64,000 bases of DNA from the NCBI GenBank assembly GCA_002841495.1, contig PGZV01000002.1, positions 1,488-65,487 of the forward strand, given 5' to 3'. This document shows positions 1 to 62,163 of the stretch, piece after piece. The translations under genes were made by a program, and so were the position numbers. The notes below the pieces were generated by a model. It saw only the letters and a program-made list of their open reading frames with translations. It was not told the DNA's origin and did no database searches. Source of the DNA: Firmicutes bacterium HGW-Firmicutes-2. Its GTDB lineage: Bacteria > Bacillota > Clostridia > Lachnospirales > Vallitaleaceae. Position 1 is the first letter of the stretch. Each line of letters begins with the position of its first letter.

Positions 1-592
1 GTGCTACCTTTTTCATTTTCATCGTTGGCCAATCTTTGTCATTTGTAATTGGATTACCAAACAACTCGATAAATTGAGATTTCACCAACTCATCTGTTTT
101 CTCAATTAATTTCTTATATGTTTTCTTCGTCCCCTCCATGGCCCACAATAACTTTGACAATTCGCGTTGTTTATCCATATTCGGCAGCTCAAATTCATAA
201 TTCTTTAGGTTTTCCCATTTAACACGAGGCGAAAGAGAGCCAGCTGACTTACCAACAGCAAAATCAAACAGTGCTTCGTTCTGAATTATAAACGGCAATA
301 ATTCCGGCAATATTTTTTCAGGAATTGCTTCGATTACAGTAATGTCGCCTGAGCATATTCCATCAAAAGGAGCTAATGATGCTTTTTTGAGATAAGCTCT
401 TCTTCTTCCGAAAAGAATATCGCCTTCGTGAAATAATTTCGTAAATGTATTTTCTTTTTCTTCATCCCACAAGGTTAAACTTATTTCTTCTGGAATCAAA
501 TGTTCAAGTCCCACAATCGGATAACCTTCTTTGCTGCCTTTGCACACTTCTCTACGTTCTTTAGCAACATCTCCCAATAACACTTTACTCAT
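1..592 (-). CDS. hsdS: Type I restriction specificity subunit HsdS (partial, C-terminus outside window)
   Basis: An open frame of about 197 codons begins with ATG at 592 and runs off the left edge. It starts MSKVLLGDVAKERREV and contains the half-domain pattern of type I specificity subunits: a target-recognition region with FGRRRAYLKKA, then PRVKWENLKNYEFELP, then a conserved helix beginning QRELSKLLWAM, and FIELFGNP leading into the second half. HsdS chooses the DNA sequence recognised by the methylase and restriction complex. The start codon overlaps the stop of the upstream hsdM in the string ATGAGTAA, so translation is probably coupled. HsdR is not in view and could lie to the left. Confidence 0.85.
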   Translation of the reverse strand, partial: MSKVLLGDVAKERREVCKGSKEGYPIVGLEHLIPEEISLTLWDEEKENTFTKLFHEGDILFGRRRAYLKKASLAPFDGICSGDITVIEAIPEKILPELLPFIIQNEALFDFAVGKSAGSLSPRVKWENLKNYEFELPNMDKQRELSKLLWAMEGTKKTYKKLIEKTDELVKSQFIELFGNPITNDKDWPTMKMKKVA

Positions 593-2084
593 TTTCTTCA
601 GCCCCCTTTCCGATCATTTCGTTCAATTTCATATAACGCAATTTCATAATTTCTGATGCTGTTCTCCAATCCTCGTAACATTCTTGAAGTGATCGTTCAT
701 CTACTTCTAATTCATGATCTGAATGTTTTACATAGAGTGGAATGCTCAATGAAAAATTATTCTCTTCCAAATCCTGAATCGTTACGACAGCAGCAAATCC
801 ATCATCCGTCTTATACTCTTTATACGCTTTAGCTATTTTCTTTATATGCTTATCTTCCAGAAAGCTTTGTGCATTTTTACGTTCTACTTCCTTAACAGCA
901 TTGATGAATAATACTTGTCCTCGTCTTTCTGGCTGTTTATTCATACGACAGATAATAATACAAGCTTCCATCGGTGAGTTATAGAACAAATTTGGACCTA
1001 AACCTATAATGCATTCCAGCATATCATTACGAATGAGACTTTCACGCATTGAACTTTCTTCATTTCTAAAAAGCACTCCATGTGGGAATAGAATCGCGCA
1101 ACGTCCGGTTTTCTCATCCAGACTCTTTATAATATGTTGTAAGAAAGCATAGTCCGCACGACCCTGTGGAGGGACTCCAAGAATATTACGTCCATATTTA
1201 TCACTAGCAAATGCTTCCCTGTCCCACTGGCTAATTGAGTACGGTGGATTTGCGAGAATCAAATCAAACTGTCTCAATTTCCCTTTTTCAATAAATGCTG
1301 GTGCCTTTAGGGTGTCACCATTTACAATATCGAAATCTTTTACTCCATGTAGAAAAAGGTTCATCTTGCCGATTGCTGACGTTAGTGCATTGATCTCTTG
1401 ACCAAAAACAGCAACGTTGCGCCATTCTTTTTTCTGCTCTTTTAAATATGCAATTGCCGAAATCAGCATACCTGCGCTACCGCATGTAGGATCATAGATT
1501 GATTCCCCTGATTCAGGCTTCAGCATCTCCGTCATTAAGTGCACGACCGTTCGATTGGTATAAAACTCTTGGGCAGTATGTCCACTATCATCAGCGAATT
1601 TCTTTATCAGGTACTCATAACCCTGACCAAGTTCATCTTCAGGACAGTTCTTTATTGATAGCGTTTTAGTACTAAAATGCTCAATCAGCTCCTTTAACAA
1701 TCTGTCAGGAAGACGATTTTTGTTCGTCCAAGCGCCATCACCAAAAACTCCTTGTAGTTTATCTGAGTTTGCATTTTCTACTTTACGAAATGCATTCACG
1801 ATTGCTACACCAACATTTTCTGAAACAGAACGGACATCACTCCAGTGAGCTCCTTCCGGAACAATAAATCGATGATTTTCTTCCCATTCTAAAGCTTCTT
1901 CATCACCACCATATTCTTCAAGAATATGGTGGCACTCTTCATCGTATACATCACTGATACGTTTAAAAAACAGAAGTGGAAAAATATACTGTTTATAAGC
2001 GCCTGCATCAATGTTCGTTCTAAGCAATACTGCTGAATTCCAAAGGTAGGATTGTAGTTCTTCAATTGTGATTCGCTTACTCAT
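585..2084 (-). CDS. hsdM: Type I restriction-modification methylase subunit HsdM
   Basis: About 499 residues, a normal HsdM length. The N-terminal helical domain has FPLLFFKRISDVYDEE. The SAM-binding motif I is DPTCGSAGM at about residues 198-206 and the catalytic motif IV is NPPY at about 279-282, so N6-adenine methylation is expected. The usual EFYTPR motif reads EFYTNR here. I chose ATG 2084 because the purine-rich AAGGGGG site lies 8 nt before it; an upstream ATG at 2090 is only 2 nt from that site. The start overlaps the preceding DraG-HsdM stop as ATGAGTAA, the same overlap seen at the hsdM-hsdS junction. It is a paralogue of the HsdM half of its upstream neighbour. Confidence 0.9.
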   Translation of the reverse strand: MSKRITIEELQSYLWNSAVLLRTNIDAGAYKQYIFPLLFFKRISDVYDEECHHILEEYGGDEEALEWEENHRFIVPEGAHWSDVRSVSENVGVAIVNAFRKVENANSDKLQGVFGDGAWTNKNRLPDRLLKELIEHFSTKTLSIKNCPEDELGQGYEYLIKKFADDSGHTAQEFYTNRTVVHLMTEMLKPESGESIYDPTCGSAGMLISAIAYLKEQKKEWRNVAVFGQEINALTSAIGKMNLFLHGVKDFDIVNGDTLKAPAFIEKGKLRQFDLILANPPYSISQWDREAFASDKYGRNILGVPPQGRADYAFLQHIIKSLDEKTGRCAILFPHGVLFRNEESSMRESLIRNDMLECIIGLGPNLFYNSPMEACIIICRMNKQPERRGQVLFINAVKEVERKNAQSFLEDKHIKKIAKAYKEYKTDDGFAAVVTIQDLEENNFSLSIPLYVKHSDHELEVDERSLQECYEDWRTASEIMKLRYMKLNEMIGKGAEENE

Positions 2085-4497
2085 TGACATATCCCCCTTC
2101 CAACAGTAATTTCATCATCTTTTCTTCTGCCTCAATCATTTCGTCAAATGCCTCAAAATATTCTCTACGCACTTCTTCTGGTGACACAGTTTCCTGTTCT
2201 TTTTTCTCAATGTAATTATTGATTGCCAGTGTATAATCCTTTTTGCGGATATCATCTAAATTAACAATCTTCACATGCTCAATAACATCTTCATAATCAA
2301 CATAGTAATCATAGACTTTTTGAATGTCTTGATCCGTCATAATATTCTGAGCCCTTTGAGGCGTATATATAGTGGAGGCATCAATTAAGCATATTCTACC
2401 TTTGTGTTTATTTGGTTTGTTATTGTTCAACAGCAAGATACAGGCCGATACCCCTGTAGAATAAAACACACCGCCCACTAATGTTATAATGCATTCCAGC
2501 TTATCTGATTCTATGAGAAGCTTACGAATCTCACCTTCTTTTCCACCTCGAAACAGCACCCCTTGTGGAAGAACAACTGCACATCGGCCATTATCTTTGT
2601 CCATGGATTTAACCATATGTTGTAGCCATGCGAAGTCACCATTTGAATCTGTTGGACAGCCCCATGTATTTCTACCAAAAATATCAGAGCTAAATTGATC
2701 TGCACCCCAGTTCTTTAACGAAAAAGGTGGATTTGCAATAACACAATCGAAGGTTTTTAATTTACCACCTTCCAAATAATTAGGCGATCTCAACGTATCG
2801 CCTTGAGTCACCTTAAATTCTCTAGCGCCGTGAAGGAACAGATTCATTCTCGCGATTGCGGATGTTGCCAGATTTTTTTCTTGGCCATAGATCCGACCAT
2901 ATGTGAGCTTATCACCTTTCATATAGTGAATGGCTTCAATAAGCATTCCACCTGTTCCTGCAGCAGGATCGTATACCGATTCACCAACCTTTGGAGCTAA
3001 TAGCATAACCAAAAGCTTAACGATGGATCTCGGTGTATAGAACTCTCCAGCATTTTTCTTTGACAAGTCAGCAAACTTCTTTATCAGGAACTCATAACTG
3101 TCGCCCATAACATCAGCTGAATAATTGCTGTTTCCAACCTTAATCTTTGACATATGCTCAACAAGATCTTTGAGACGTTCATCAGACAGCTTCGACTTAT
3201 CCGTCCAGTTAGCATCATCAAAACTACTAAAAACTCCGTGGAGTGTATCCGGATTTGCTCGTTCAATTCCATTCATGGCATTAACAATGGATACACCAAC
3301 ATTTTCACTGGTCTCACGTACATCCTGCCAATGGCAACCATCTGGTATCACAAAGCGATGATTTTCTGGGAAGCTTGCATATTCCTCATCACCACCTGAT
3401 TCCTCCAGTGCTGCCTGTGTTTCTTCATCATACACATCTGACAAACGTTTAAAAAAGAGAATCGGTGTCACATAGCTTTTGTACTCATCCTGATTGATCG
3501 GACCGCGAAGAATGTTACATGCCTCGAAGAGATGAGAAAACAATTTCTGGCTTGTTGTTTCTTCCGGTTGTACCGAACTATCATGTAGCGTTTCATCTGC
3601 TGAGTCAATTGCCGATTTTAGCATTTCGTCTCTACCTCCTTTTTTTCTAGCAACATCTACTGCCTTCTCTTTGTAACTGACACTTCCCGTTGATTGTAAC
3701 TTTTCCATTTTTCCAGGATATCGATTTTCAAACTCAAGCAATATTCCTAATAGCTTTTCATCAAGAAAAGTCAAGGCATGCTTTCTAATTTGTGTCGGAA
3801 CCCCATAATAAGCTTCAGCTATACCACCAGTGATAGCGGCAATCGTATCACTGTCACCACCTATTGAAATAGCATTTCTGATTGCATCTTCAAAATCAGT
3901 GGATTCAAAGAAGGCAACCAATGCCTTAGGAACTGTTTCTTTACTGGTTTCGTTAAACTGATAAGTTTCTCGAATATCATCTAAACTAAAATTCATTGGG
4001 TAGTAGTTTTTATCGATATAATCCCGTATTTCCAGTAGGTTTTTTCCACTACGAGCCATAAACACCGCGACTGAAACTGCTTCAGCTCCTTTTATACCTT
4101 CTGGGTGATTATGAGTTACTGCTGTAACTGTGTACGATAGAGATTTGGTCTCTTCTATGGATTGCGCTACATGGCCACAGGCACTTATACGCATAGCTGC
4201 TCCATTACCAAAACTGTTATAGGGTTCAGGCGAGTCACTGTACATCCAATTATAGAACATTCCACCATAACCACACTTTGGATACGGTCTACCTATCTCC
4301 TGCATATTCCTAATTGCTTGATCACTTAAATCACTATAATCTGTTTGGCACTCCATCAATGCCTTACAAACTGCCAATGACATAACCGTGTCATCCGTAA
4401 AGAAACATTTATATGTTAAAAATTCAAAGTCTTTCGACCGGTGATTATTCCATTCAAATCTGGAACCAACTATATCACCAATGATTGCACCAATCAT
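2077..4497 (-). CDS. ADP-ribosylglycohydrolase (DraG)-HsdM fusion protein
   Basis: One 806-residue frame joins two enzymes. Residues 1-265 are a DraG-type ADP-ribosylglycohydrolase with the family's metal and substrate motifs intact: FTDDT (33-37), GNGAAMR (97-103), THNHPEG (128-134) and GGDSDT (213-218). Residues 265-315 are a charged linker. Residues 316-806 are an HsdM adenine methylase with FFKRLSDVYDEE, EFYTPR, motif I DPAAGTGGM (510-518) and motif IV NPPF (589-592). A GAGGAGG ribosome site precedes ATG 4497. No stop or frameshift separates the halves, so it is a genuine fusion. DraG enzymes remove ADP-ribose from proteins or other acceptors; the target here is unknown. A link to DNA or complex modification is inference from the fusion and operon. 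Confidence 0.85.
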   Translation of the reverse strand: MIGAIIGDIVGSRFEWNNHRSKDFEFLTYKCFFTDDTVMSLAVCKALMECQTDYSDLSDQAIRNMQEIGRPYPKCGYGGMFYNWMYSDSPEPYNSFGNGAAMRISACGHVAQSIEETKSLSYTVTAVTHNHPEGIKGAEAVSVAVFMARSGKNLLEIRDYIDKNYYPMNFSLDDIRETYQFNETSKETVPKALVAFFESTDFEDAIRNAISIGGDSDTIAAITGGIAEAYYGVPTQIRKHALTFLDEKLLGILLEFENRYPGKMEKLQSTGSVSYKEKAVDVARKKGGRDEMLKSAIDSADETLHDSSVQPEETTSQKLFSHLFEACNILRGPINQDEYKSYVTPILFFKRLSDVYDEETQAALEESGGDEEYASFPENHRFVIPDGCHWQDVRETSENVGVSIVNAMNGIERANPDTLHGVFSSFDDANWTDKSKLSDERLKDLVEHMSKIKVGNSNYSADVMGDSYEFLIKKFADLSKKNAGEFYTPRSIVKLLVMLLAPKVGESVYDPAAGTGGMLIEAIHYMKGDKLTYGRIYGQEKNLATSAIARMNLFLHGAREFKVTQGDTLRSPNYLEGGKLKTFDCVIANPPFSLKNWGADQFSSDIFGRNTWGCPTDSNGDFAWLQHMVKSMDKDNGRCAVVLPQGVLFRGGKEGEIRKLLIESDKLECIITLVGGVFYSTGVSACILLLNNNKPNKHKGRICLIDASTIYTPQRAQNIMTDQDIQKVYDYYVDYEDVIEHVKIVNLDDIRKKDYTLAINNYIEKKEQETVSPEEVRREYFEAFDEMIEAEEKMMKLLLEGGYVNE

Positions 4498-4538: not shown

Positions 4539-6158
4539 TTATTTCACTTTCAAAAGGTTATCTTGTAGTCGTGTCACAACACTTTGCCATCTATCTTCAG
4601 CATTTTTAATGCTTTCAAGATAAAGTTCCAGTTCTTGCTCATATTCATCAACAACAGCTTGCTGTTCTTCAAGTCTAAGCAACGGTATTTCAATCGTTTT
4701 AAGATCTTTATAGCTTATGTTATTGACAATCGTTCCTTGCTGCTTGCCTGATAACACTTTGTTACCAGTCGGACTATCTAAAAACACTTTCAAATACGTT
4801 GATAATAATAATTTTTCATTAGGTCTTATTACAATAATGTTGGATGAGGCAATACATGGATATTTTTGCTCTTTAAAAACTGCAATTCTAATCGCCGTCC
4901 CTCTAGCAGGTAAAAGCAAGTCACCGTCTTTTAGAAGATAATTGGCTACTTTTCTTTCTTCCTCTTCTATATGATCCAAATCATCATAACTGATGTCAAA
5001 AACATTTATATTTGAAATATTTAGAACGCCTATACTTCCGTTCGGATCTTTTTTGCTGACTGCTTTCCCACGGAAAACCTCAGCGACTTTACCAAGCTCT
5101 TCTCTTTTCAAGTTTGAGTTCTGATATCGTTGCCACTCTTCGTCTACCATCGCAAAGATATGGTCGATATTCCAATCTCCCATCTCAATCAATTCATCCA
5201 TCATTACAAATGTGTCCTCAGATAATACCAATTGATTGATTCCCTCTTTTTTGACATTTCGCGTATCCGCATCATATCTCTTGACCATGACATCTTCAGT
5301 TCGACCTGTTGTGATCGTAAACATGTATGACTTGATTGCTGTTGACTTAAATATTCCTGCAGGTAATTCAGCAATTTCTTCTAGTCGATACATGCCTTGA
5401 ACAAATTCCCTTAAATCTTTCACTGTACCAGCAGCAAATGTAATTCTCGCCGGCAGAACAATTACCAGCCGCCCCGAACTATTTAAGTGCAATAATAAAT
5501 TCTCAACCGCAATCATTTCATATTCTCTGCATATGAAATCTCCGTTGTCCTCAGCACGCTCTCTTGCACCAAAAATCGGTACCGATAGAATCAGATCAAA
5601 CTTCTTTGCAGTAAATTCATAATCATATATACTTGTTTCTTGTACAACCACATTTGGGTATTCAACAAACATCTCCTCAAGAATAATCTTGCTTACAGCA
5701 TTCATGGTTGTTACAAAAAACTGACATTTCGAGTTTTGATTTATTAGCTCCATCAAATGTGGAACGAATTTTTCAGCTTCCGCAATCAATACCATGTTGA
5801 TATCGGGTCCAAAATGCTTACTAAATTCATCAATCAACACCTTTGGTATATAGAACGTCTCATTTGGATCCGCAGAAGTAAGCATGAGTTCCCAATCAAC
5901 CTCTTCGCTATCCATTGCCATAAATTCATTATAAAAAACAGCTGGATCCTTAAACGGATTTAATAAACCGTATTTATCAGCTATGGATTGTAATGCCTTG
6001 AAAGCTTTTTGCTCTGTAGGCTTTTGAGGACTTGTAACAAACTCATCCTTTGTCTTTTTCAGAAGAAATAGCGCAACTGGCAGTTCTGACTGAACAGCAT
6101 ATCCTCTTAATGCATTATATCGATTCCAAATTTGGTTAATCTGCTTATCGTTACGCAC
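4539..6158 (-). CDS. Degenerate N6-methylase-like domain fused to HsdS-like region
   Basis: 539 residues from GTG 6158, preceded by AAGGAGG at 8 nt. The first ~300 residues follow an HsdM-like fold pattern, but the catalytic motif IV reads SVPIF (192-196) instead of NPPF/Y and the glycine-rich SAM motif is not recognisable (around VLIAEAEKF). Residues from about 340 look like a specificity half: EVFRGKAVSK, GDLLLPARGTAIRIAVF, GTIVNNISYKDLKTIEIPLL, and a C-terminal coiled region starting EEQQAVVDEYEQELEL that resembles HsdS conserved helices. It is first in the hsd operon, 41 nt before the DraG fusion. I infer a non-catalytic or recognition subunit; it could instead be a divergent methylase. 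Confidence 0.65.
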   Translation of the reverse strand: MRNDKQINQIWNRYNALRGYAVQSELPVALFLLKKTKDEFVTSPQKPTEQKAFKALQSIADKYGLLNPFKDPAVFYNEFMAMDSEEVDWELMLTSADPNETFYIPKVLIDEFSKHFGPDINMVLIAEAEKFVPHLMELINQNSKCQFFVTTMNAVSKIILEEMFVEYPNVVVQETSIYDYEFTAKKFDLILSVPIFGARERAEDNGDFICREYEMIAVENLLLHLNSSGRLVIVLPARITFAAGTVKDLREFVQGMYRLEEIAELPAGIFKSTAIKSYMFTITTGRTEDVMVKRYDADTRNVKKEGINQLVLSEDTFVMMDELIEMGDWNIDHIFAMVDEEWQRYQNSNLKREELGKVAEVFRGKAVSKKDPNGSIGVLNISNINVFDISYDDLDHIEEEERKVANYLLKDGDLLLPARGTAIRIAVFKEQKYPCIASSNIIVIRPNEKLLLSTYLKVFLDSPTGNKVLSGKQQGTIVNNISYKDLKTIEIPLLRLEEQQAVVDEYEQELELYLESIKNAEDRWQSVVTRLQDNLLKVK

Positions 6159-10647: not shown

Positions 10648-13203
10648 CTACAGACATTGGTTTACCTCTTGTTTAAAACCAAGCGCTCTTTTCTTCTCTC
10701 TCATTTTCCTCAGCAGCTTGCTGTCGATCTTCACCACTCCCTCTTGCCTGTTCGAAATCATGTTATCTTCAAAAATCTTACTCATGTGATTCATCATTCG
10801 TGAAAAGCAGAACACTACCGAAGGATCTCGGTACCGATTAATATTTTCAAGAAAAGCTCTTGCATACTCATTACCTTGTTCCGCCGACAGTGTGAGCCAC
10901 TTAATTGCCATCTCTTTAGCCTTCGGAACTTCCTTGCCTAACAAATAAATTTTGCCTAAAGCAAATTGCGCATATTGGTTACCCTCCTCTGCCGAAATAT
11001 TGAGATATGACAAAGCGAGACGAATATCTTTTGTCACAGCTCTTCCTTCAAGATATAGCTTTCCCAAAGTGTATGCGGCTACTTCTTTCATTTTAACCAA
11101 ATCTTTATCCTCAATGACAATCAATGACTTCAAATATTCAGCAGCTTCCAGCAGCTCATCTTTATCCGGATGTTCCTCTTTCAATATCAATTTCGCCAGG
11201 GCAAATTTTGCGAACACATTTCCAAGACTTTCTGACTTCTTAAAATACTCTTTTGCACGAATAGAAATCTTTTCAACTCCAATTCCATTTTGTAGCATCC
11301 AACCCAATCGATATTGAATCTTATCATCTGGATTTATTCTTTCAAGTATCTCAAAACCTTCAAATGCTCTTTTGAAATGTTCCGATGATTTTGAGTCATT
11401 TATTTCTGTACCTATACCATCCCGATACATCTTTGCTAATTCAAAATCTGCATATGGAAAGTTCTGTTGTGCTGCCTTTTGGTATAGTCCGAGTGCTTTA
11501 TGATAATCCTTCTCTACACCTTGACCTTGATAATATAAAGCACCCAATGAATACTGCGCATACTTATAATTTTGATCCGCCGACAGCATAAACCAACCAG
11601 CAGCCATTTCATGATTTTGCGCTACTCCAAGTCCAGCGGCCAACATCTTTCCAATCCGATATTCGGTATATTTCCAAGCATTCTTTTCTTCGACTTCATT
11701 AAATCCGATAAAAGCTTTTCGAAAATATTCATTTGCTATCTCCGAATCTTTTTGAACACCTAAACCACTGAAAAAAATACGTCCCAAATCATAGATGGCA
11801 AGTACATTTCCATTTTGAGCTTCAATCCCAAGGATACTTCTGGCAGTTTCGAAGTTCTGTATTATTGATTCAGTTCCAACCAAATAATCACGAGCCCTTT
11901 TATAATCATCGGTCCAGTCAACATAAAATGCCTGTGATTCATTTTCTCTTGTTTCATCTGCTACATTTTCCATTTCAATATCATTATCGGTACCATCTAC
12001 CATGATCGTCGCGTTCAAGTGCTCATCATCAAATAATCTGACAACATTGTTTTCACCCTCTTCACCAAAGTCATAGTCTATCGCATTGAATTTATCAGCT
12101 TCAGAGATGATCATATTCTTGATAGGTTTAAACTCCTTCTGCTGTGAGAGCGGAAGTCTTTCAGGCAGTTCATCCAGATAACTATAAAGCACTTCTTCCC
12201 GCATTTCATACCATAAATCGTAGGCTTTCCCAATCTGCTCGGCCTTTGACATCTCATCGACGATTTCATCTACTACCGATTTCAGGCTTGACTTCAAATA
12301 ACCATACACTTTTTTGCCTGCTGTTTGCTTCAGTTCATCCGATAAGTACAAAAAAAGTTCTTCAAGTTTTGGATTCTCTATGACGCCGTTTTTCATTTCA
12401 CGAATGAGCTTCAATATTGCTTCTTGGCTCTCTTTTTTAAGTACATCTCTCCTGTTACTCTGTTCAGCATAAATCATCGGCATTTCATGCTTAAATATGT
12501 TCTTCACTAGCCCAGACTTCATTTTTTCGATTCCCTTTTTTGTTAGAAATCCTTCAGCCGGATTCGTGGAGTAACAAACCATATGAACATGAGGATGATG
12601 ACTTTCATTATGAAAGGCTGCATACCACCTGAAATTCTGAATCGGTATTTTCATTGCTTCAGCAATCTCTGGTGCAGAGTACGAAAGCATGTTGTGCCAA
12701 AAATCCGCATTATCAAATCCAGTTTGAATAGCATCTTCTCTACGAAGGGATATGATTGGTATCCAGATATTCCCCAGATGATTGGCCACTTCATCAACGA
12801 TCCGGCTCAATACAATTTCATCATCTCCAGCGGTAAACAATCCGTGTGCACCTCTTCGTTCTACTCTTGGTCGATTCGCAATGTAATCAACGTAATTTTC
12901 TCGCTGACCTATCTCATCCATATTTTGTTCAAGTGCCATAGTTATAAACTCTGACGCATTTTCTACAGACTTATCTTCCATGTAATCTTCATACTCAAAC
13001 AATTGTTTGCTTTCAGGAAATTCTGTTATTATCTGCTGGATCAAATCTTCTTGCTTCAATGTAGACGGCATTTTAGTTTTTGGTTTGGGAAGTTTCTCAA
13101 CGCCACTTCGCGTTGCCATGTAGGTCACGAGATTGGAACGATGCGATACCGCCTTTTTAGTATTCCCTTTTAGATACGGACACTTCAATACAATCCTTGG
13201 CAT
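10648..13203 (-). CDS. MobP-type relaxase with C-terminal Sel1 repeats
   Basis: 851 residues. The first ~300 are a relaxase: VTYMATRSGVEKL near the N-terminus and the metal-binding histidine motif ESHHPHVHM near residue 205, as in MobP3-like nickases that cut oriT and bind the 5' end. From about residue 455 to 805 there are eight or so Sel1-type repeats, each with an A..LG..Y..G.GV..D core, for example YSLGALYYQGQGVEKD. Sel1 repeats bind partner proteins. The relaxase lies 21 nt after the MobC-like gene and close to the oriT candidate. The start at ATG 13203 has only a weak GGTGGTG site. Confidence 0.88.
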   Translation of the reverse strand: MPRIVLKCPYLKGNTKKAVSHRSNLVTYMATRSGVEKLPKPKTKMPSTLKQEDLIQQIITEFPESKQLFEYEDYMEDKSVENASEFITMALEQNMDEIGQRENYVDYIANRPRVERRGAHGLFTAGDDEIVLSRIVDEVANHLGNIWIPIISLRREDAIQTGFDNADFWHNMLSYSAPEIAEAMKIPIQNFRWYAAFHNESHHPHVHMVCYSTNPAEGFLTKKGIEKMKSGLVKNIFKHEMPMIYAEQSNRRDVLKKESQEAILKLIREMKNGVIENPKLEELFLYLSDELKQTAGKKVYGYLKSSLKSVVDEIVDEMSKAEQIGKAYDLWYEMREEVLYSYLDELPERLPLSQQKEFKPIKNMIISEADKFNAIDYDFGEEGENNVVRLFDDEHLNATIMVDGTDNDIEMENVADETRENESQAFYVDWTDDYKRARDYLVGTESIIQNFETARSILGIEAQNGNVLAIYDLGRIFFSGLGVQKDSEIANEYFRKAFIGFNEVEEKNAWKYTEYRIGKMLAAGLGVAQNHEMAAGWFMLSADQNYKYAQYSLGALYYQGQGVEKDYHKALGLYQKAAQQNFPYADFELAKMYRDGIGTEINDSKSSEHFKRAFEGFEILERINPDDKIQYRLGWMLQNGIGVEKISIRAKEYFKKSESLGNVFAKFALAKLILKEEHPDKDELLEAAEYLKSLIVIEDKDLVKMKEVAAYTLGKLYLEGRAVTKDIRLALSYLNISAEEGNQYAQFALGKIYLLGKEVPKAKEMAIKWLTLSAEQGNEYARAFLENINRYRDPSVVFCFSRMMNHMSKIFEDNMISNRQEGVVKIDSKLLRKMREKKRALGFKQEVNQCL

Positions 13204-54003: not shown

Positions 54004-56403
54004 GACGGGTAGGCAACCAGCGAGGTAACTATTTCAGTCCCTTTTCTGTCTGCCCCCCTCCAAACCGTGCTTGCAACTTTCACTGCACACGGCTCTCCAG
54101 TAACTTTATTTCAAACAACCATTATGAATATTGTTATGACATTTTCTACAGACTACAAGCGTTTTTCTTCTTCTCGTAGCCATAATTTGTATCCATACTG
54201 GTTTTGTGGATTTCCCTTTCGTATTTAGGTCAGATAATTTTCTAACATGATGAACTTCTATATCCTCTGTAGACCCACATAATTCACATGTATCTGCGAG
54301 TATTCTTTTAAGAAGTTCCGTTCTACCTCCCCAAACTTGATAAGGTGTATCATCAATAACTGTTTTCCTTTTATGTGTTAGTGATATTCCTCCAAATTGC
54401 GCTTCTAATGGCTTTTTATTTTCTCGCTCTACAACAACCTTTATACATTTTAAAGTTTTTCCCGTTTTCTTATCAGTAACTTCACAAGCATACTTCTTCT
54501 TCATTTTTTTCATAGAAGACTTATGCTTGTATGCAAGAGTTTTTAATAATGACCCTTGCATAATCCATAAAAGTTGATGTAACCACGATACATTTTGCGC
54601 CATCAGATAATACTGAACTACACCACGAAATTCTTGTCCATATCTTGCAACAATGGAAAAATCATCGTCGTGTAGTAGTTTTCCTAGATGAATTGTTTTA
54701 CCATTCTTCATATAGTTAGCACATTTCTTATTAATCACTTCAGCAGGCACGAAAAGTGCCACAACCCCATTTGCTCCACGTCTACCTGTAGAATCAACAT
54801 AGTCATTAGCTTTTTGTACTTTAACGTCATAACCTAAGAATCTTGCAGCTGTTGTTGTCGCATGAGTTATCAACGTCTTTTCTTCTGATAAATTCAGCTT
54901 TAAGTTTGTTTTTAACCATGATGCAATTTCTACTTTAATATCCTCAGCTTCGCTTTTTGACCCGTTGAATCCTAAAAGAAAATCGTCCGCATATCTTACG
55001 TATCTCAGCCTTCTGTAGTCTGCGTTTTTAGTGTCAATAGACGGCATCTTTCGCCTTTCTATTTTCAAATCCCTTGCAGATATGAAGTCATTGTTCTTTT
55101 TACACTTGGCGATTTCTCGGTTCAGTTTGCTATATTCTGGGTTTGCTATTTGCCTTTTCCCCTTGGTATACTTTGGTATCAATTCTGTCTTAACGAAATT
55201 ATCAAATTCATTAAGGTAAATGTTTGCTAGCAAAGGACTTATAACGCCGCCCTGTGGTGTTCCACTTAGCGTTTTATTATATTTCCAGTCCTCTTGATAT
55301 CCAGCTTCTAAGAGATTTTGCACTAGTCTTAAGAATCGATTGTCTTTAATAGACTTTGACAAAATCCCTATCATAACTTCATGATTTATTGTGTCAAAAT
55401 ACTTAGATATGTCACCTTCAATAAACCATTTTGTCCCTTTCCAAACTTGAATTTCCGATAATGCAGTATGACATCCTCTCTGTGGTCTAAAACCATGAGA
55501 ACTATCACTAAACTGTGGCTCATAATATGCCTCTAAAATCATACGAATAACTTCTTGTAATAACTTGTCACGCCAGGTTGGAATACCAAGTGGACGCTTC
55601 TTTCCGTTTTTCTTTGGAATATACACACGTCTAGTCGGAGTCCATTTATATCTTTCATGACGGATATCATCAATTAGTTCTTCGATTTTTCTTATTGACA
55701 TTCCATCAACCGTTTCATTTGTTGCACCTTCTGTCATAGACCCACTATTTGGGTATAGCTTTGAATAAGCTATCAGGTACAACTCCTTGTTGTACAGCGA
55801 TTTGTAAAGTCTTTCCAATGGCAGTTTTTGACTACCTCTTGTTTGAATGACTGCTAAAATAGTTTTGGCTTCACGCATCTCACGCACCTAGTCCTTTCTA
55901 AAACAATCAAAGTTACCTGTTGCCCTTCGCCTTGTACAAGGCTTTCCCTTGCTCTGACTACTATGGCAACTCCGTTACCTTAGAGCTCTCGCCCCTTAGG
56001 CAATCCTGCAATCCGTCAAAAATGTACTATAGTATCCTTTAGGTTCCTTACTCATTCTTTTAATTACACTCACCGTGTACTCTTTCATCATACGAAGTTA
56101 ATTGCCACAAAATAACAGAAGCAACTATATGATGACATCGGGTTGAAATCAATTTTGATTTCCAATCGCTTTCCGAAGGGCGATGCTATGCACCAAGTCA
56201 GAATTAAGGTTCAGGCAATCCAGCTTTAACCATGGGATACGGAACTTGCGGAGCATCATTCTATCGCGACTAAGAATTTATCCGCTTTACCAGTATGCTA
56301 TTGTCCTCTTTGTGTTTCCACGCCAAGTGAACTGGTTATTCCTATTATTTACTTCGAATAATTTCCCCTTAGGGGAGATACATTTTTGCGTTTAACAGCG
56401 CAC
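54004..56403 (-). mobile_element. Group II intron with reverse transcriptase
   Basis: It starts with GTGCG (56403-56399). Domain V is visible as GAGCCGTG...GCACGGTT near 54045-54080, and domain VI ends GCCTACCCGTCAC with the bulged A. The 5' ~515 nt (55888-56403) are RNA domains without a gene. The 3' end is set here by reading frame; a canonical AY end would be at 54002. Confidence 0.85.
54106..55887 (-). CDS. ltrA: Group II intron reverse transcriptase/maturase with HNH domain
   Basis: 593 residues from GTG 55887 (AAGGA upstream; ATG at 55878). RT motifs: RRVYIPKKNGKKRPLGIPT, HGFRPQRGCH, GTPQGGVISPLLANIYL and catalytic YADD. Maturase X domain follows. The C-terminal HNH endonuclease has CELCG, VHHVRKL and CRKCHNNIH. 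No stop interrupts it, so the intron may be mobile. Confidence 0.92.
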   Translation of the reverse strand: MREMREAKTILAVIQTRGSQKLPLERLYKSLYNKELYLIAYSKLYPNSGSMTEGATNETVDGMSIRKIEELIDDIRHERYKWTPTRRVYIPKKNGKKRPLGIPTWRDKLLQEVIRMILEAYYEPQFSDSSHGFRPQRGCHTALSEIQVWKGTKWFIEGDISKYFDTINHEVMIGILSKSIKDNRFLRLVQNLLEAGYQEDWKYNKTLSGTPQGGVISPLLANIYLNEFDNFVKTELIPKYTKGKRQIANPEYSKLNREIAKCKKNNDFISARDLKIERRKMPSIDTKNADYRRLRYVRYADDFLLGFNGSKSEAEDIKVEIASWLKTNLKLNLSEEKTLITHATTTAARFLGYDVKVQKANDYVDSTGRRGANGVVALFVPAEVINKKCANYMKNGKTIHLGKLLHDDDFSIVARYGQEFRGVVQYYLMAQNVSWLHQLLWIMQGSLLKTLAYKHKSSMKKMKKKYACEVTDKKTGKTLKCIKVVVERENKKPLEAQFGGISLTHKRKTVIDDTPYQVWGGRTELLKRILADTCELCGSTEDIEVHHVRKLSDLNTKGKSTKPVWIQIMATRRRKTLVVCRKCHNNIHNGCLK

Positions 56404-59400
56404 TATCTTTAGCATGTTGTCGATCCTTGGATCAACCATCCCATTTCGAATATCACTTGCCCTTTCAACAAAGCTTTCCATGATCTCTTTTGTAAAATCA
56501 CTGGACTCTGCTGAAATCAACTTATGTTTGTCTCCCTTTAATTTAGGAATAGGTAACTTAAGCATGTCTGCTGTTTTAACATCTGCCATGTTTTTAAATA
56601 TCGTCATGAGTTCCGGTAAATTTGAAAACTTAGCAAATCTACTTTTATAGCGATAGCCTGTACCTTCAGGCGCTAGTTCAAGACTTGAAACCACTTCTCC
56701 AAACTGTGCTGCCCATGCATCAAAGTGATGGATACCTCTTGCTTCAAGCTCCTTATTTTGAATATACCTTTGCATAACATACATTTCAGTCATGCTATTA
56801 CTGATGGGTGTACCAGTCGCAAAGATGACGCCACGTCCTTGATTGATTTCTTGGATATACTGGGTTTTCATGAGCATATCCATGGATTTTTTACTACGTG
56901 TATTGGAGATTCCCGCAACATTTCTTATCTTTGAAAATACAGCACAGTTCTTAAAATAATGAGCTTCATCTACATAAACACAATCTATTCCAAGTTCTTC
57001 AAAGTTAATCACATCATCTTTGGGGCTGTCGTGAAGTCGTTTGATTTCAGCTGTTAGTGATAGCTTGAGTTTTTCCATCTGCTTGATACTCCAGTTTTCG
57101 CCATTACTCTTTTTTGCATCAGCAATAGCAGCAGAGATATCATTGATCTGCCTGTGAATCATTTCTTCCTGACGTTCTTTCGAAACAGGGATTTTCTCGA
57201 ATTGCGAGTGCCCCATAATAACAGCATCATAAGCGCCAGTAGCAATACGACTAACAAAACGTCTTCGATTGGATTTTTGAAAATCTTTCTTTGTGGTGAC
57301 TAGAATATTAGCCGATGGATAAAGCCTTAAGAACTCACTGCCGATATGCTGTGTTAAATGATTTGGTACAACAAGAACTGCTTTATTAATCAGTCCCAGT
57401 CGCTTTTGCTCCATACAGCTGGCAACCATTTCGAAAGTCTTACCAGCACCTACTGAATGTGCTAGAAGTGTACTGCCACCATAGATAATCCTTGCAATGG
57501 CAGCTGTTTGGTGTTCTCTTAATTTAATGTCCGGATTCATCCCTGGCAATTTTAAATGACTACCATCATATTCTCTAAGGCGGATATTGTTATAGTGCTG
57601 ATTATAATAATCTACATACTTTTTACGTCTCTCTGGATCTTTAAATAACCATTCTTTAAAGGCTTGTTTTAATAGCGATTGTTTTTCTCTTGCTAGCATG
57701 GTCTCTTTTTTGTTGATGACATATTTGACAATGTCTCCATCTTCAACACGGTCTTTAACCGTAGAATTTCTAAGATTCAAGCTGTCTTCAATGATGTAGT
57801 AAGCATTAATTCTAGATGTACCAAAGGTTTCTTTAGCTGAAACCGAATACCCATCTAATCCTTTGTTCTCAACTGCAAAGCTTGCATTGTAATTGTTATA
57901 GTGCACTTTGATTTCATTTCTGCCACCGGTATTGTGATAATATCTCGGTGTTTTCAAGGTTTCATAGATAAACTGCTCATAATCTACTGGTTCAATCCAT
58001 GTGGTTCCTAACCGCACATCAATATCACTGGCCTCAAGATCAATGGGTTGTACTTTTTCTAGGGCAGGAACATTCTTTGAAAAGAGTTCCGGATTCATAT
58101 CCGCAAAGACTTTGGCAAATTTAAGCTTTTGTCTCACATCACCCGAGAGATACTCATCAGCTGTTTCCCAACCTCTCAAAACATCATTTTCATCATACTT
58201 TTCAGGGTTCAAATAAATACCTTGTTCAAGTTCCTTAATGATGACTTCTGCTTCTTCATCATAAAGCTCAGCCATAAATGGAATATCCACCATACCTTTT
58301 TCATTTAAGGATGCTGTTAATGCTTCAAATGCAGAATCTACATCCGTTATGGATTCATATGGCTTAATGGTTCTTTTGGTAAACATATCTGCCTTTGTGA
58401 CATGATGATCTTCATCCTCCACTTCTAGAGAACATAAAAGCGGATAGTCATTGTCATCACGGAAGGCACTGGCATTGGGTCTTGAAGTAATATAATCATA
58501 GTCTTTAACAAATGCATCATAGATTTGATTTAACTGGTCTTGAGCCTTTTCAAGTGATTCTTTCGTGCAGCCTTCGGTTTGAAGCGTAATGATTTCTCTT
58601 GTTATGTCCCGAACTGCCATCATGCCTTGAATTCGTTCAAGGGTTTTACCGGTATAATCCATTCGTCTCATGATAGAATTCTCACGGTAATAGAGTTTGT
58701 CATCAATGAAGGCATAGCAATAATTCTTGTACTTAGGATCGGCTGGTATGTCATTGCTGTCCTCTTTTTTCTCCTGCTCATAATAACCGATTTCAGCTTG
58801 TAGATGAGACACAGCTTCTGATAGAGCTTCTTCAAGATTAAAGTTACTATCTGTATTTACACACGTGGTATAACGACTGTCTCTACCAAACATCCTTTCA
58901 TCAAATATCATTTCACCAAGCATCATATGGGGATGGTCAATGAAATATTGATTGACGGGGACCCCATTTTCATTATCTATAACCGATAACCAAGTTGGTA
59001 TTTCAACCGACCGGCGTTCTCTTTTTTTTAGAAAAAGAATATCTGCAGTTACATCGGTATTGGCATTTTCCTTAAATGCTGTATTAGGTAATCGTATAGC
59101 ACCAATTAATTCAGCTCTTTCAGCAATATACTTCCTGACAGCTTGATCTTTTTTATCCATGGTTCCCTTACTGGTAACAAAGGCAATGATGCCACCAGGT
59201 CGTACTTTATCTAGGGTTTTTGCAAAGAAATAATCATGGATCATGAAGTTATGCTTATCATAAAGTCTGTCATATACCTTGTAATTCCCAAAAGGTACAT
59301 TGCCAATGGCTACATCAAAAAAGTTGTCTTCAAACTGTGTTTCTTCATAACCTTTGACTTGAATCTGCGCTTTCTGATAGAGCTGCCTTGCAATACGTCC

Positions 59401-62163
59401 GGATACATCATCTAGTTCAACCCCAAAAAGTTTTGACTTGTTCATAGAATCAGGAAGGTGGGAAAAGAAATTACCAACACCTAAGGAAGGTTCCAAGATG
59501 TTTCCCTTTTTAAAACCAAACTGATCAAGTGCCTGATAAATACTTTGAATGACAACAGAGGATGTATAGTGGGCATTAGGCGTTGACGCTTTTGCACTAT
59601 CATATTCTTCTTGTGACAACAGTTTTTTTAGTTCACCGTATTCATTGCTCCAACCACTTGCCCCTATATCAAAAGCTTGTGGCATACCACCCCAACCAAC
59701 ATATCTGGCTAATATGGACTGTTCTTTGTCCGTGGCCATACGGTTTTCTGTTTCAATAACTTTTAGCGTCTTAATCGCTTCAACGTTGGTTCTGAATTTT
59801 GTTTTTAGCCCACCAATACCGATTTCATCTTCAGGTGAAAATTGATAATTGATTTTTTTAGATTGTAGCCTTTCTTGATTTTCATCTTCAACTGGACCAA
59901 TGGATACAATGCCCCACTTTTCTTCTTCCGTCAGTGGTTTCTCATCGGGCAGATAATCTAAAACAAAATCAACACTTTCTTTTCTGAAAATTGGATAACC
60001 GGTTTGCCCTGCAAAGGTTAAATCCATAAGAGATACCGCATTGTTATCATAGTCAATGGATTCGATTTGAAATTTCCTTCCCTCAATATCCACTTCCATG
60101 CCAATTTCTAAGGGGTACTCATGGAGATCCTCATCTTCTAGGTCCAATAAATCATCCGTTCCCGAAGATGCTTCAACAAGGATTTCATGACCTTTATCAT
60201 CAAATGTTGGTTCTTCATTTTCTTCATCAATATCCTCTGAGTAATAAGCCTTATAAACAATGTGACCTTGTCTAGCAATATTCGATAACCAATCTTTGAG
60301 AAAGACATTTAATTCATCTTCTAAATCAGGATTAATTAACTCATCTCCTTGATAGGCTTCATGATAGATTGCCATGTTATCTTGCTTAAAGGTTGCTGCT
60401 GTTAATGTCTTTTGATTATGATCCACAATGAGTTCCATATCCGGATCACTCATCAAGTCTCCATTTTGTTCATAATAATGGGATAGAGAGATTCTATTCT
60501 CATAGAGCTTTTCAATAACAAGATCCATAAAGCCAGGGGCTTTTAGCTTCATATAGCTATAACGTCCATTTAAGATACCTGGGGCAATCTTCATTAGCTT
60601 TTTATAGTTCTCATGTGTAACGTTATCTTCAGCGTAATTGATGTCAAATAAAGTTGGTTGATACACTGCCCTTCTTGTTGGTGGATTATCATTCTTATAC
60701 CGAGGTTCAAAGTACTTACCATTATCCATTAAGGCCTCAATACCGGAAGCAACTTTAGCCCAAGACAAATGAATTTTTTTATCAGATTTATATAAATCAA
60801 TGGTAATCCCTTTACTGTCGTGATTTTCAAAACCACTTAGATCATCAGTGAATGTAACAGAACCACCACCAGTACCATATTCATTTTTTAGAAAGTCTGC
60901 TCTTTCTTTTGCAGTATGTTCTTCTGAAAAGAAATCAACAATTCGCTGTTTTCCACCTTCAAAGCCAGAACCTCTTAGAAGCACCGTTTCAATAAGCTCA
61001 TCATCTGTTAGCTCCATTAAAAAAGAGCTACGCTCTGGCAGCTCTAAATCTTTAGCTATCTCTCCTTGAAGATGATTTCTTTCAGAATGATCTCTTCCGC
61101 TCTCGTTCTGATCATCTCCCTGTGACGATAAGTCTGATAGGTGTTGGTCGGATCTTGAATCGGCTCTTTCTGTAGCATCTGCTCCTGAAGTTTCTCCATC
61201 CTCTCCCATGCTTCCTCGTTCACTTGATGCATCAGTGGAAGCAGCGTCCCTTCTGTCACTAGATAATTGTACCGATTGATATGTTCCTCTTTCAGGTAAT
61301 TGATTGCCATCTGCCCGTACTTCCCTAATGGCTTCTTGTCGTAGCTTTTTTCCCTCGATATTTGAATCTGAGGATGATAAATCCCTTGTACTTCCTGATA
61401 ACTGAGTTCCATGGGTTTCATTGACATTCACACTCCTTTTTTCTTTTTTGATGGTTTTAATTTCTCTTTCAACTTCTCTTAAAAGCTGTTCTGAGATGGT
61501 ACTTGTCAAATAGCCTAATCTTAAGGTTAGTGCTTTGGTATCAAAATCTGTTACTGTATTAAATGGGTTTAAATTACTTAGCTTAGGTTCTTCAATACCT
61601 GATCGAATGGCTGTCATATACTCTACACTATCCATAAGAGACTGCATAAACTGCCTTGTAACGCCTTCAATAGGTAATCCCGATAGTTTGGTCTTAGATA
61701 GCTCTTTTTCAACCCCATGCTGAATATCTGAGGCATATGCAAGGACAGATTCATGGGTCCGCCTTGCAATCCATTCTGACAAGGTATTCGCTTTGAAGCT
61801 TTCTAACAACTGCGATTCTAATGCTTCGTTTAATTGCCATACTTTAGGAATAGTATGTGGCTGACCATGGGTATCTTCAATATCAAATAGATATTTTAGT
61901 TTTAAATAAGCACTTTGATCATCAAAGACTGCTATACTCTTAGCGCCCCTGTTGATCCACCTGCCGATACGACGGTTCCAGATTTCCATATCAGCAACTA
62001 ATGTAGCTTCCGGTCTTTGGGCATATATAAGCACGGCGTTATTAAAACTGTGTTTATATATCCTTGCGTGAAAGGTTAAAAAGTCTTTCCAGGCCTGCTC
62101 ATCTTGCATGATTTCTTTCAAGATATAATCATAAATTTCTTTGATTTCTGTCAGTCTACTCAA
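56404..62163 (-). CDS. Giant methylase-helicase, upstream exon
   Basis: 1920 codons from TTG 62163, overlapping the parB stop. Residues ~1-150 are ArdC-like ([19 protein letters not shown]). ~250-380 is a charged, low-complexity segment. An N6-methylase-like domain has EPSLGVGNF (~890) and NVPFGNY (~955). The helicase N-domain has Walker A HSVGAGKT (~1568) and DEAH in VYVDEAHYF (~1729). It ends DNMLKI at the intron. With the second exon the protein is ~2370 residues, usual for this family, which may protect and remodel transferred DNA. Confidence 0.85.

Follow-up and report, generated by a model that had tools for sequence, protein, structure and literature searches.

Why should a DNA methylase of a restriction-modification (R-M) system carry an enzyme that removes ADP-ribose? 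The question is raised by one gene in a 64,000-nucleotide stretch of contig PGZV01000002.1 of Firmicutes bacterium HGW-Firmicutes-2 (hereafter the window), in which an ADP-ribosylglycohydrolase of the ARH/DraG kind is joined in frame to M1, one of the two HsdM methylase subunits of a type I R-M operon. By comparing sequences we could establish the fusion and its conservation, an M1M2SR-like core (two methylases, specificity subunit S, nuclease R), intact catalytic residues and purifying selection on the hydrolase. What is known here is the M1M2SR core; what appears to be new is the hydrolase on its M1, together with a predicted internal start at the junction. We consider it most likely, with a probability of roughly 0.4, that the M1-borne hydrolase acts as an eraser on the complex, removing phage-made ADP-ribose from the restriction complex or from the DNA being read.

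The fusion gene and its hydrolase domain

The gene and its parts are arranged as follows (aa, amino acids):

2077–4497, minus strand: draG::hsdM1 fusion gene, 806 aa; AGGAGG, seen by eye, ahead of the ATG at 4497
3712–4497, minus strand: ARH/DraG ADP-ribosylglycohydrolase domain, aa 1–262; GDIVGSRFE (7–15), TDD (34–36), HNHPEG (129–134), GGDSDT (213–218)
3556–3711, minus strand: linker, aa 263–314; length nearly constant, sequence variable
3622–3639, minus strand: internal GGAGGT (codons 287–288) with in-frame ATG (aa 292, 3624–3622), predicted second start
2077–3555, minus strand: M1 (HsdM) part, aa 315–806; NPPF at aa 589–592; closest solved match PacII M1 (7vru chain A)

The original prediction, made from the letters of the window alone, had placed a DraG::HsdM fusion with intact motifs of both enzymes at 2077–4497. 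These coordinates are exact; the frame runs from 4497 to 2077 on the minus strand, and a plus-strand reading is ruled out by the many stops with which that strand is packed here. On the 806-aa protein, Pfam locates ADP_ribosyl_GH at aa 1–233 (115.6 bits; curated cut-off 26.2), HsdM_N at aa 321–448 and N6_Mtase at aa 460–769 (323.2 bits). In the source genome the gene is a single stop-free frame, and the catalytic motifs of hydrolase and methylase both stand in this one uninterrupted gene. Could two genes have been merged by an assembly or sequencing artefact? An A-run and a ribosome-binding site do lie at the junction, and one added base there would break the frame. However, isolates as well as metagenome assemblies from many genera show the same frame, and the junction DNA differs from genus to genus. 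Because the homologues share the frame, the artefact reading is refuted, and we regard it as virtually impossible.

The original prediction had also named what would speak against it, namely a fusion confined to this assembly, DraG motifs lost in relatives, or a sequencing error. The search it had proposed, for the two-domain architecture and its operon context, found the in-frame fusion to be common to many genera of Gram-positive bacteria with near-equal linker length; the motifs are kept, and the homologues carry the frame too. Scanning genomes with the hydrolase domain as query left 80 of 305 loci, and 16 of these 80 hold the fusion (L045 is cut by a contig end; L037 and L048 have a shortened M1). 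The carriers are Alkalibacterium, three Paenibacillus, Streptococcus anginosus, Dorea, Ruminococcus and further Lachnospiraceae, together with Oscillospiraceae, Veillonellaceae and other metagenome-assembled genomes. The S. anginosus copy is broken: its M1 is cut short, and no M2, S or R was found in the 18 kb read.

For the catalytic residues we counted 24 motif positions over 25 fusion domains, leaving out four fusions obtained afterwards. Apart from E15 in one domain, none of the 24 positions varies among the 24 or 25 domains in which it is covered, and the NPPF of M1 is invariant in 18 aligned fusions. E15, T34-D35-D36 and D215-D217-T218 align with E41, T76-D77-D78 and D314-D316-T317 of ARH3, whose mutant D77A, according to the available text of the source, does not remove ADP-ribose from RNA ends (PMC6582358). 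The ratio of nonsynonymous to synonymous substitution rates (dN/dS) of the hydrolase domain is 0.03–0.15 in the seven of ten pairs with a defined value, four of them at dS below 1 (0.09–0.15) and three at dS 1.8–2.3, close to saturation; it is undefined in the other three. M1 gives 0.02–0.10, again defined in seven of ten pairs, and in the low-dS pairs the constraint on the hydrolase is somewhat weaker than that on M1. Judged by these values, the domain is kept by purifying selection, and it looks like an apparently intact, catalytically competent enzyme.

Structure models gave pLDDT values of 72 and 78; because this confidence is middling, we did not use the relative placing of the domains. 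The modelled hydrolase part matches ARH3 with a Z score of 24.7 (root-mean-square deviation, rmsd, 3.0 Å; 249 aligned residues), Rhodospirillum rubrum DraG with Z 22.6 and ARH1 with Z 21.8. ARH3 ranks first among solved structures in sequence comparison and first among hydrolases in fold comparison; these fold scores leave the choice of substrate undecided. Fold, TDD and GGDxDT motifs and the E41 position are common to our domain and to ARH3, DraG and ARH1 (PF03747). However, the listed solved relatives are separate proteins, whereas here the hydrolase is short (~262 aa) and joined to a DNA methylase. Against TIGR02662, the dinitrogenase-reductase DraG, it scores 57.5 bits (NCBIfam equivalog cut-off 337.05), which assigns it to the same superfamily and not to that enzyme.

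How often did the fusion arise? The hydrolase is present in 29 of 35 distinct M1 relatives (at least 45% identity, at least 200 aa aligned) and missing from six, of which L257 is cut by a contig end; the use of a hydrolase query biases this count. When viral contigs were scanned with M1 as the only query, 11 loci emerged, some overlapping loci from the other searches: nine fused, the contig-cut L257, and L258 (57% identity) without hydrolase. In the M1 tree, whose 26 fused rows include the window's gene twice and in which two hydrolase-less rows sit on long branches, the fused forms make one group with the hydrolase-free L156 and L157 nested inside it, while L258 and L269, also without hydrolase, stand outside. 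The fusion label needs four changes on this tree, one of them due only to the contig-cut L257. In the hydrolase tree, which was built quickly, a single 36-row clade (SH-aLRT 84) takes in the whole set of 25 fused domains, and the label needs nine changes, at least six of which are forced by starred branches. Since the hydrolase tree is ambiguous, a single origin rests mainly on the M1 tree. On these trees, one gain with two losses fits the data, and there may have been several gains. Two free hydrolases, L192 and L046, retain linker remnants and look like escapes from the fusion.

The methylation core and the predicted second start

Two further genes of the core are reached in the window:

585–2090, minus strand: hsdM2, 501 aa, NPPY; 14-base overlap with the end of the fusion gene; closest solved match PacII M2 (7vru chain B)
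1–592, minus strand: hsdS, 5' part, leaving the window; full length 371 aa in L113; second half partly masked (N) in the window's genome

The R-M operon context that had been proposed holds, since M2 and S follow the fusion and R could be read in a related record. Two details changed. The second HsdM is complete and carries NPPY as claimed, but it is explained as M2 of a type I subgroup already described, the M1M2S kind with m6A and m4C. A true HsdS does start at 592, but the upstream gene at 4539–6158 is a pseudo-methylase with one conserved target recognition domain (TRD), and we reject it as a plain HsdS. The virus-collection record (L113/L139) does not differ from the window in hydrolase, M1 or M2, and it also covers the full HsdS (371 aa), a tyrosine recombinase (326 aa), a spare TRD and HsdR (969 aa). 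HsdR is thus located outside the window: in L139 it stands behind S, and in the window's genome a 100% identical copy lies at the beginning of a different contig (C21:138–3044).

The closest solved relatives are the PacII methylases, with 478 bits for M1 against 7vru chain A and 570 bits for M2 against chain B; in the model, the fold of the M1 part matches PacII M1 with Z 39.2 (rmsd 5.4 Å, 483 aligned). As far as the available text of its description goes, the PacII group is a non-canonical type I R-M kind in which M1 (NPPF) makes N6-methyladenine (m6A) and M2 (NPPY) N4-methylcytosine (m4C), the two marks standing on opposite strands; the arginine R29 is present in M2 and not in M1, S is bound first by M1, and helix α1 of M2, but not that of M1, lies in the DNA major groove as the larger contact (PMC9613975). 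Our system shares with it the gene order M1-M2-S-R and the NPPF/NPPY pairing. The arginine gives a mixed picture: R29 aligns with R24 of our M2, but our M1 also has an arginine at the equivalent place, R331, invariant in 18 aligned sequences, where PacII M1 has threonine. Our system adds the hydrolase on M1 and, in most loci, the gene dMS before M1. With its tandem of two different HsdM genes together with S and R, the core would be of the known non-canonical type I kind, and an m6A/m4C output is predicted. Hydrolase-free methylase-methylase-S-R operons are annotated on Exiguobacterium and Streptomyces plasmids.

The supposition that no system with this layout had been described was borne out by a full-text literature search, which found no description of the fusion and did not cover the founding m4C type I paper (Morgan 2016) or REBASE. 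Five papers that combine the hydrolase name with R-M terms (PMC3900703, PMC10434189, PMC13160076, PMC4465626, PMC6773835) have, in their available text, no bearing on the fusion. The fusion is visible to any domain scan, and databases may list it uncommented. Weak PADLOC/NCBIfam matches to MADS arise through general methylase and S domains; with MAD2 at 66.2 of 720 bits and MAD5 at 57.1 of 400, far under the NCBIfam cut-offs, and with the other mad genes not searched, we reject membership in MADS. An AAA-type open reading frame (ORF) after HsdR in L139 gives a weak mad8 match (E 2.7e-5).

Translation from the ATG at aa 292 is predicted to yield a hydrolase-free M1 of 515 aa in the window. At the junction (aa 286–293), a ribosome-binding site with ATG is present in 14 of 24 distinct fusions; outside it, only five such in-frame ATG cases exist across all 24 fusion genes. 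In 14 rows picked by the amino acids GG only, the linker codons are GGA in 13 and GGT in 13, and with a codon entropy of 0.37 these two rank lowest among the 45 columns of conserved glycines, whose median is 1.56. The 14 rows are related, but the remaining 43 glycine columns have the same relatedness. Because the entropy of the GGA and GGT columns lies far below that of the other glycines, the site is conserved at the DNA level and not through the protein alone. From this pattern we predict hydrolase-free M1 as a second product wherever the site is kept; in the remaining 10 fusions it has either decayed or was never present.

How would such a system work? The presumed m6A subunit M1 of the M1M2S methylase, which acts with the R nuclease, bears the hydrolase N-terminally, and each complex with full-length M1 would bring one eraser near the DNA. 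Since the larger DNA contact is made by α1 of M2 and not of M1, the N terminus of M1 may be the roomier site for a DNA-near add-on, and by analogy with PacII the domain would be held near the DNA in complexes with full-length M1. There, the eraser would strip ADP-ribose put by phage ADP-ribosyltransferases on the complex or on the DNA being read, and restriction and methylation would thereby be kept working during infection. The internal start, found in just over half of the examined fusions, would also yield eraser-free M1, so that loaded and unloaded complexes may coexist. We infer here that the hydrolase is active, that it sits near the DNA, that the internal start is used and that phages are the source of the modification. 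A more specific version, in which the M1 arm de-ADP-ribosylates DNA or complex while reading DNA and the two translation starts set the ratio of eraser-bearing to eraser-free complexes, is conceivable but on the doubtful side.

The substrate of the hydrolase

Several observations weigh against an eraser of phage-made ADP-ribose. We know of no phage ADP-ribosyltransferase that hits a type I enzyme. The fusion is also rare: in whole-genome searches for its full length at E ≤ 1e-100, the order gave 3 carriers among 392 genomes (that of the window is one of them), another order gave 5 among 344, three of them already known as carriers, and the phylum, with 398 genomes, gave only the window's own and one frame-broken copy. 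The core does not need the hydrolase, since M1s without it exist (L156, 84% identity; L157, 70%; L186, 60%, with a broken frame; L258, 57%; L269, 49%). In one of the 24 domains that cover E15, that of L207 (= L142), this residue is replaced by K, at the position of ARH3 E41. Finally, 11 free-standing hydrolases share the clade of the fused ones, and a further PF03747 protein (~307 aa) stands free elsewhere in the window's genome; the substrate may therefore be unrelated to R-M. The hydrolase could then act on a small molecule or a general cell substrate, joined to M1 merely for shared expression or mobility. The free clade members sit without the operon's other genes around them, and the internal start would permit M1 alone. 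However, the fusion is kept across many genera with near-constant linker length and few losses, and wherever gene order was compared, neither M2 nor S nor R carries the hydrolase. (Fifteen of the compared loci were picked for a nearby HsdR, so that HsdR in 15 of 15 is no frequency.) We consider a general substrate rather unlikely.

The hydrolase could also clean the target, stripping from DNA bases or ends an ADP-ribose made by phage or by DarT-like enzymes to allow reading, methylation and cutting. To our knowledge there is no ADP-ribosylated phage genome, and we regard this explanation as unlikely. In its favor, ARH3, the best match, clears ADP-ribose from nucleic-acid phosphate ends, but ARH1 and ARH2 are inactive on RNA ends in the available text of the same source (PMC6582358), and in substrate the domain here may be closer to these two than to ARH3. 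Furthermore CmdT, which acts against T4, modifies adenine N6, the very atom that M1 would methylate; it does so, however, mainly in RNA and weakly in single-stranded DNA, as described in the available text (PMC11618068).

Quite unlikely, in our view, is an on/off switch in which a host ADP-ribosyltransferase silences M1, M2, S or R and the hydrolase reactivates them. DraG works so on nitrogenase reductase with DraT (PMC4465626, available text), the hydrolase is fused to the very enzyme under its putative control, and at L190 a DUF2971 gene (function unknown) stands between dMS and the fusion. Against such a switch, Pfam found no transferase among the operon-side ORFs, the other ORFs of the layouts having been compared only with the operon's own proteins. 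DarT, which ADP-ribosylates DNA (PMC6582358, available text), occurs in 2 of 21 fusion genomes versus 0 of 21 others, never on the locus contig, and other transferase families were not searched; the window's genome has no DarT. These counts are too few to carry meaning for DarT as a partner, and its absence from 19 of 21 carriers counts only against a switch run by that kind of host transferase. A DarTG-type module has DarT beside the hydrolase, which is not the case here. Because Pfam revealed no operon-side transferase and DarT stands at 2 of 21 versus 0 of 21, we prefer the eraser of phage-made modification over a host switch, with modest confidence.

The gene dMS, the surroundings and the meaning of the fusion

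4539–6158, minus strand: dMS, 539 aa; a pseudo-methylase with the type I M fold, followed by a single conserved "Esub1"-like TRD

In the model, aa 1–339 of dMS adopt the type I M fold (2okc, Z 25.2, 3.8 Å, 328 aligned); by eye this methylase-like domain has neither the S-adenosylmethionine (SAM) motif nor NPPF/Y. Its TRD (340–536) matches Esub1 (8vsq) with Z 23.7 and rmsd 2.7 Å over 196 residues at 36% identity, while in dMS it is joined to the pseudo-methylase. An alignment of 14 dMS proteins has 76 invariant columns; the TRD (last 200 residues) accounts for 48 and the stretch of aa 1–339 for the other 28, a conservation that appears unlike that of a variable specificity domain. Among the 15 loci picked for a nearby HsdR, 13 reach far enough upstream; the gene adjoins the fusion in 12 of them and is absent at L147; other genes can separate the two (L190, L252, L256), such as the DUF2971 gene at L190:4951–5913 or, in L252, HsdR. 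A close system without hydrolase (L187:3586–5539; M1 84% identical) has two genes in the place of dMS, for a TRD protein of 209 aa and a methylase-like protein of 447 aa.

The entry 8vsr is titled as a co-crystal of Prx with Esub1; going by the name and the listed abstracts, Prx would be the phage protein paratox. In the genus of S. anginosus, dMS matches occur in 31 of 147 genomes, one being dMS proper and the rest TRD only, mostly as frames of ~200 aa. Around eight of these stand-alone Esub1-like TRDs (L243–L250, ~200 aa; 13–14 kb each) we found no relative of the operon's other proteins, and the idea that the streptococcal loci are reduced versions of the system is unsupported. In six of the eight (L244, L245, L246, L248, L249, L250) a protein starting with IKCPxC, which we take to be DUF2130, lies within ~2 kb of the TRD.

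The surroundings in the window are conjugative, with coupling proteins, a MobL relaxase and ParA/ParB. A group II intron reverse transcriptase/maturase (54106–55887) lies within this region, and a protein of 1923 aa that combines DUF6908 with an SNF2-like domain (56392–62163) adjoins the ParB and ParA genes. Comparing the Paenibacillus loci L141 and L143 in 150-base stretches, we found dMS, the hydrolase and the first ~140 residues of M1 to be mostly 84–97% identical and HsdR 91–97% beyond its first stretch (81%), while the remainder of M1 and M2 falls to 57–78% and S lower still. In this one pair, the methylation core was exchanged, and dMS, hydrolase and nuclease remained associated.

The source-genome contig ends around the recombinase gene, which is also seen at L138:87–1067, just outside the window. 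In L139 (10145–12905) this tyrosine recombinase and the spare second TRD follow HsdS, the TRD copies being 99.6% identical over 542 bases in direct orientation; L257 has the same arrangement (615 bases, 99.8%). L145 and L147 share only 23–28-base repeats, and L255 has such repeats plus 167 bases at 74%. From these repeats, the region looks like a site of DNA-specificity cassette exchange at short direct repeats, not of inversion. After HsdR, five loci encode a protein of ~650 aa (L140:14235–16172, L145:15959–17929, L148:12977–14896, L152:9694–11643, L264:5618–7531) with an HExxH motif in all five examined. The copies in L140 and L145 give weak CapP/M78 peptidase and C-terminal helix-turn-helix (HTH) matches, and that of L140 matches phrog_4031, of unknown function, over its full length; it is perhaps a peptidase-type regulator of the operon. 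In L252, a gene for a 607-aa protein (11157–12980), whose start presumably resembles DUF262 proteins, lies between HsdS and the CapP-like gene.

In summary, ADP-ribosylation is a known weapon in phage conflict, and the literature searched contained no restriction enzyme that brings along an eraser. If active, the fusion hints at a phage strategy, ADP-ribosylation of R-M systems or their DNA, for which one can look directly, and it is a defined protein, amenable to point mutants, with which that strategy can be probed. The internal start is a second clear prediction. If the eraser does work in this way, a counter-counter-defence would be built into the R-M system itself, which predicts phage transferases that disarm type I enzymes.

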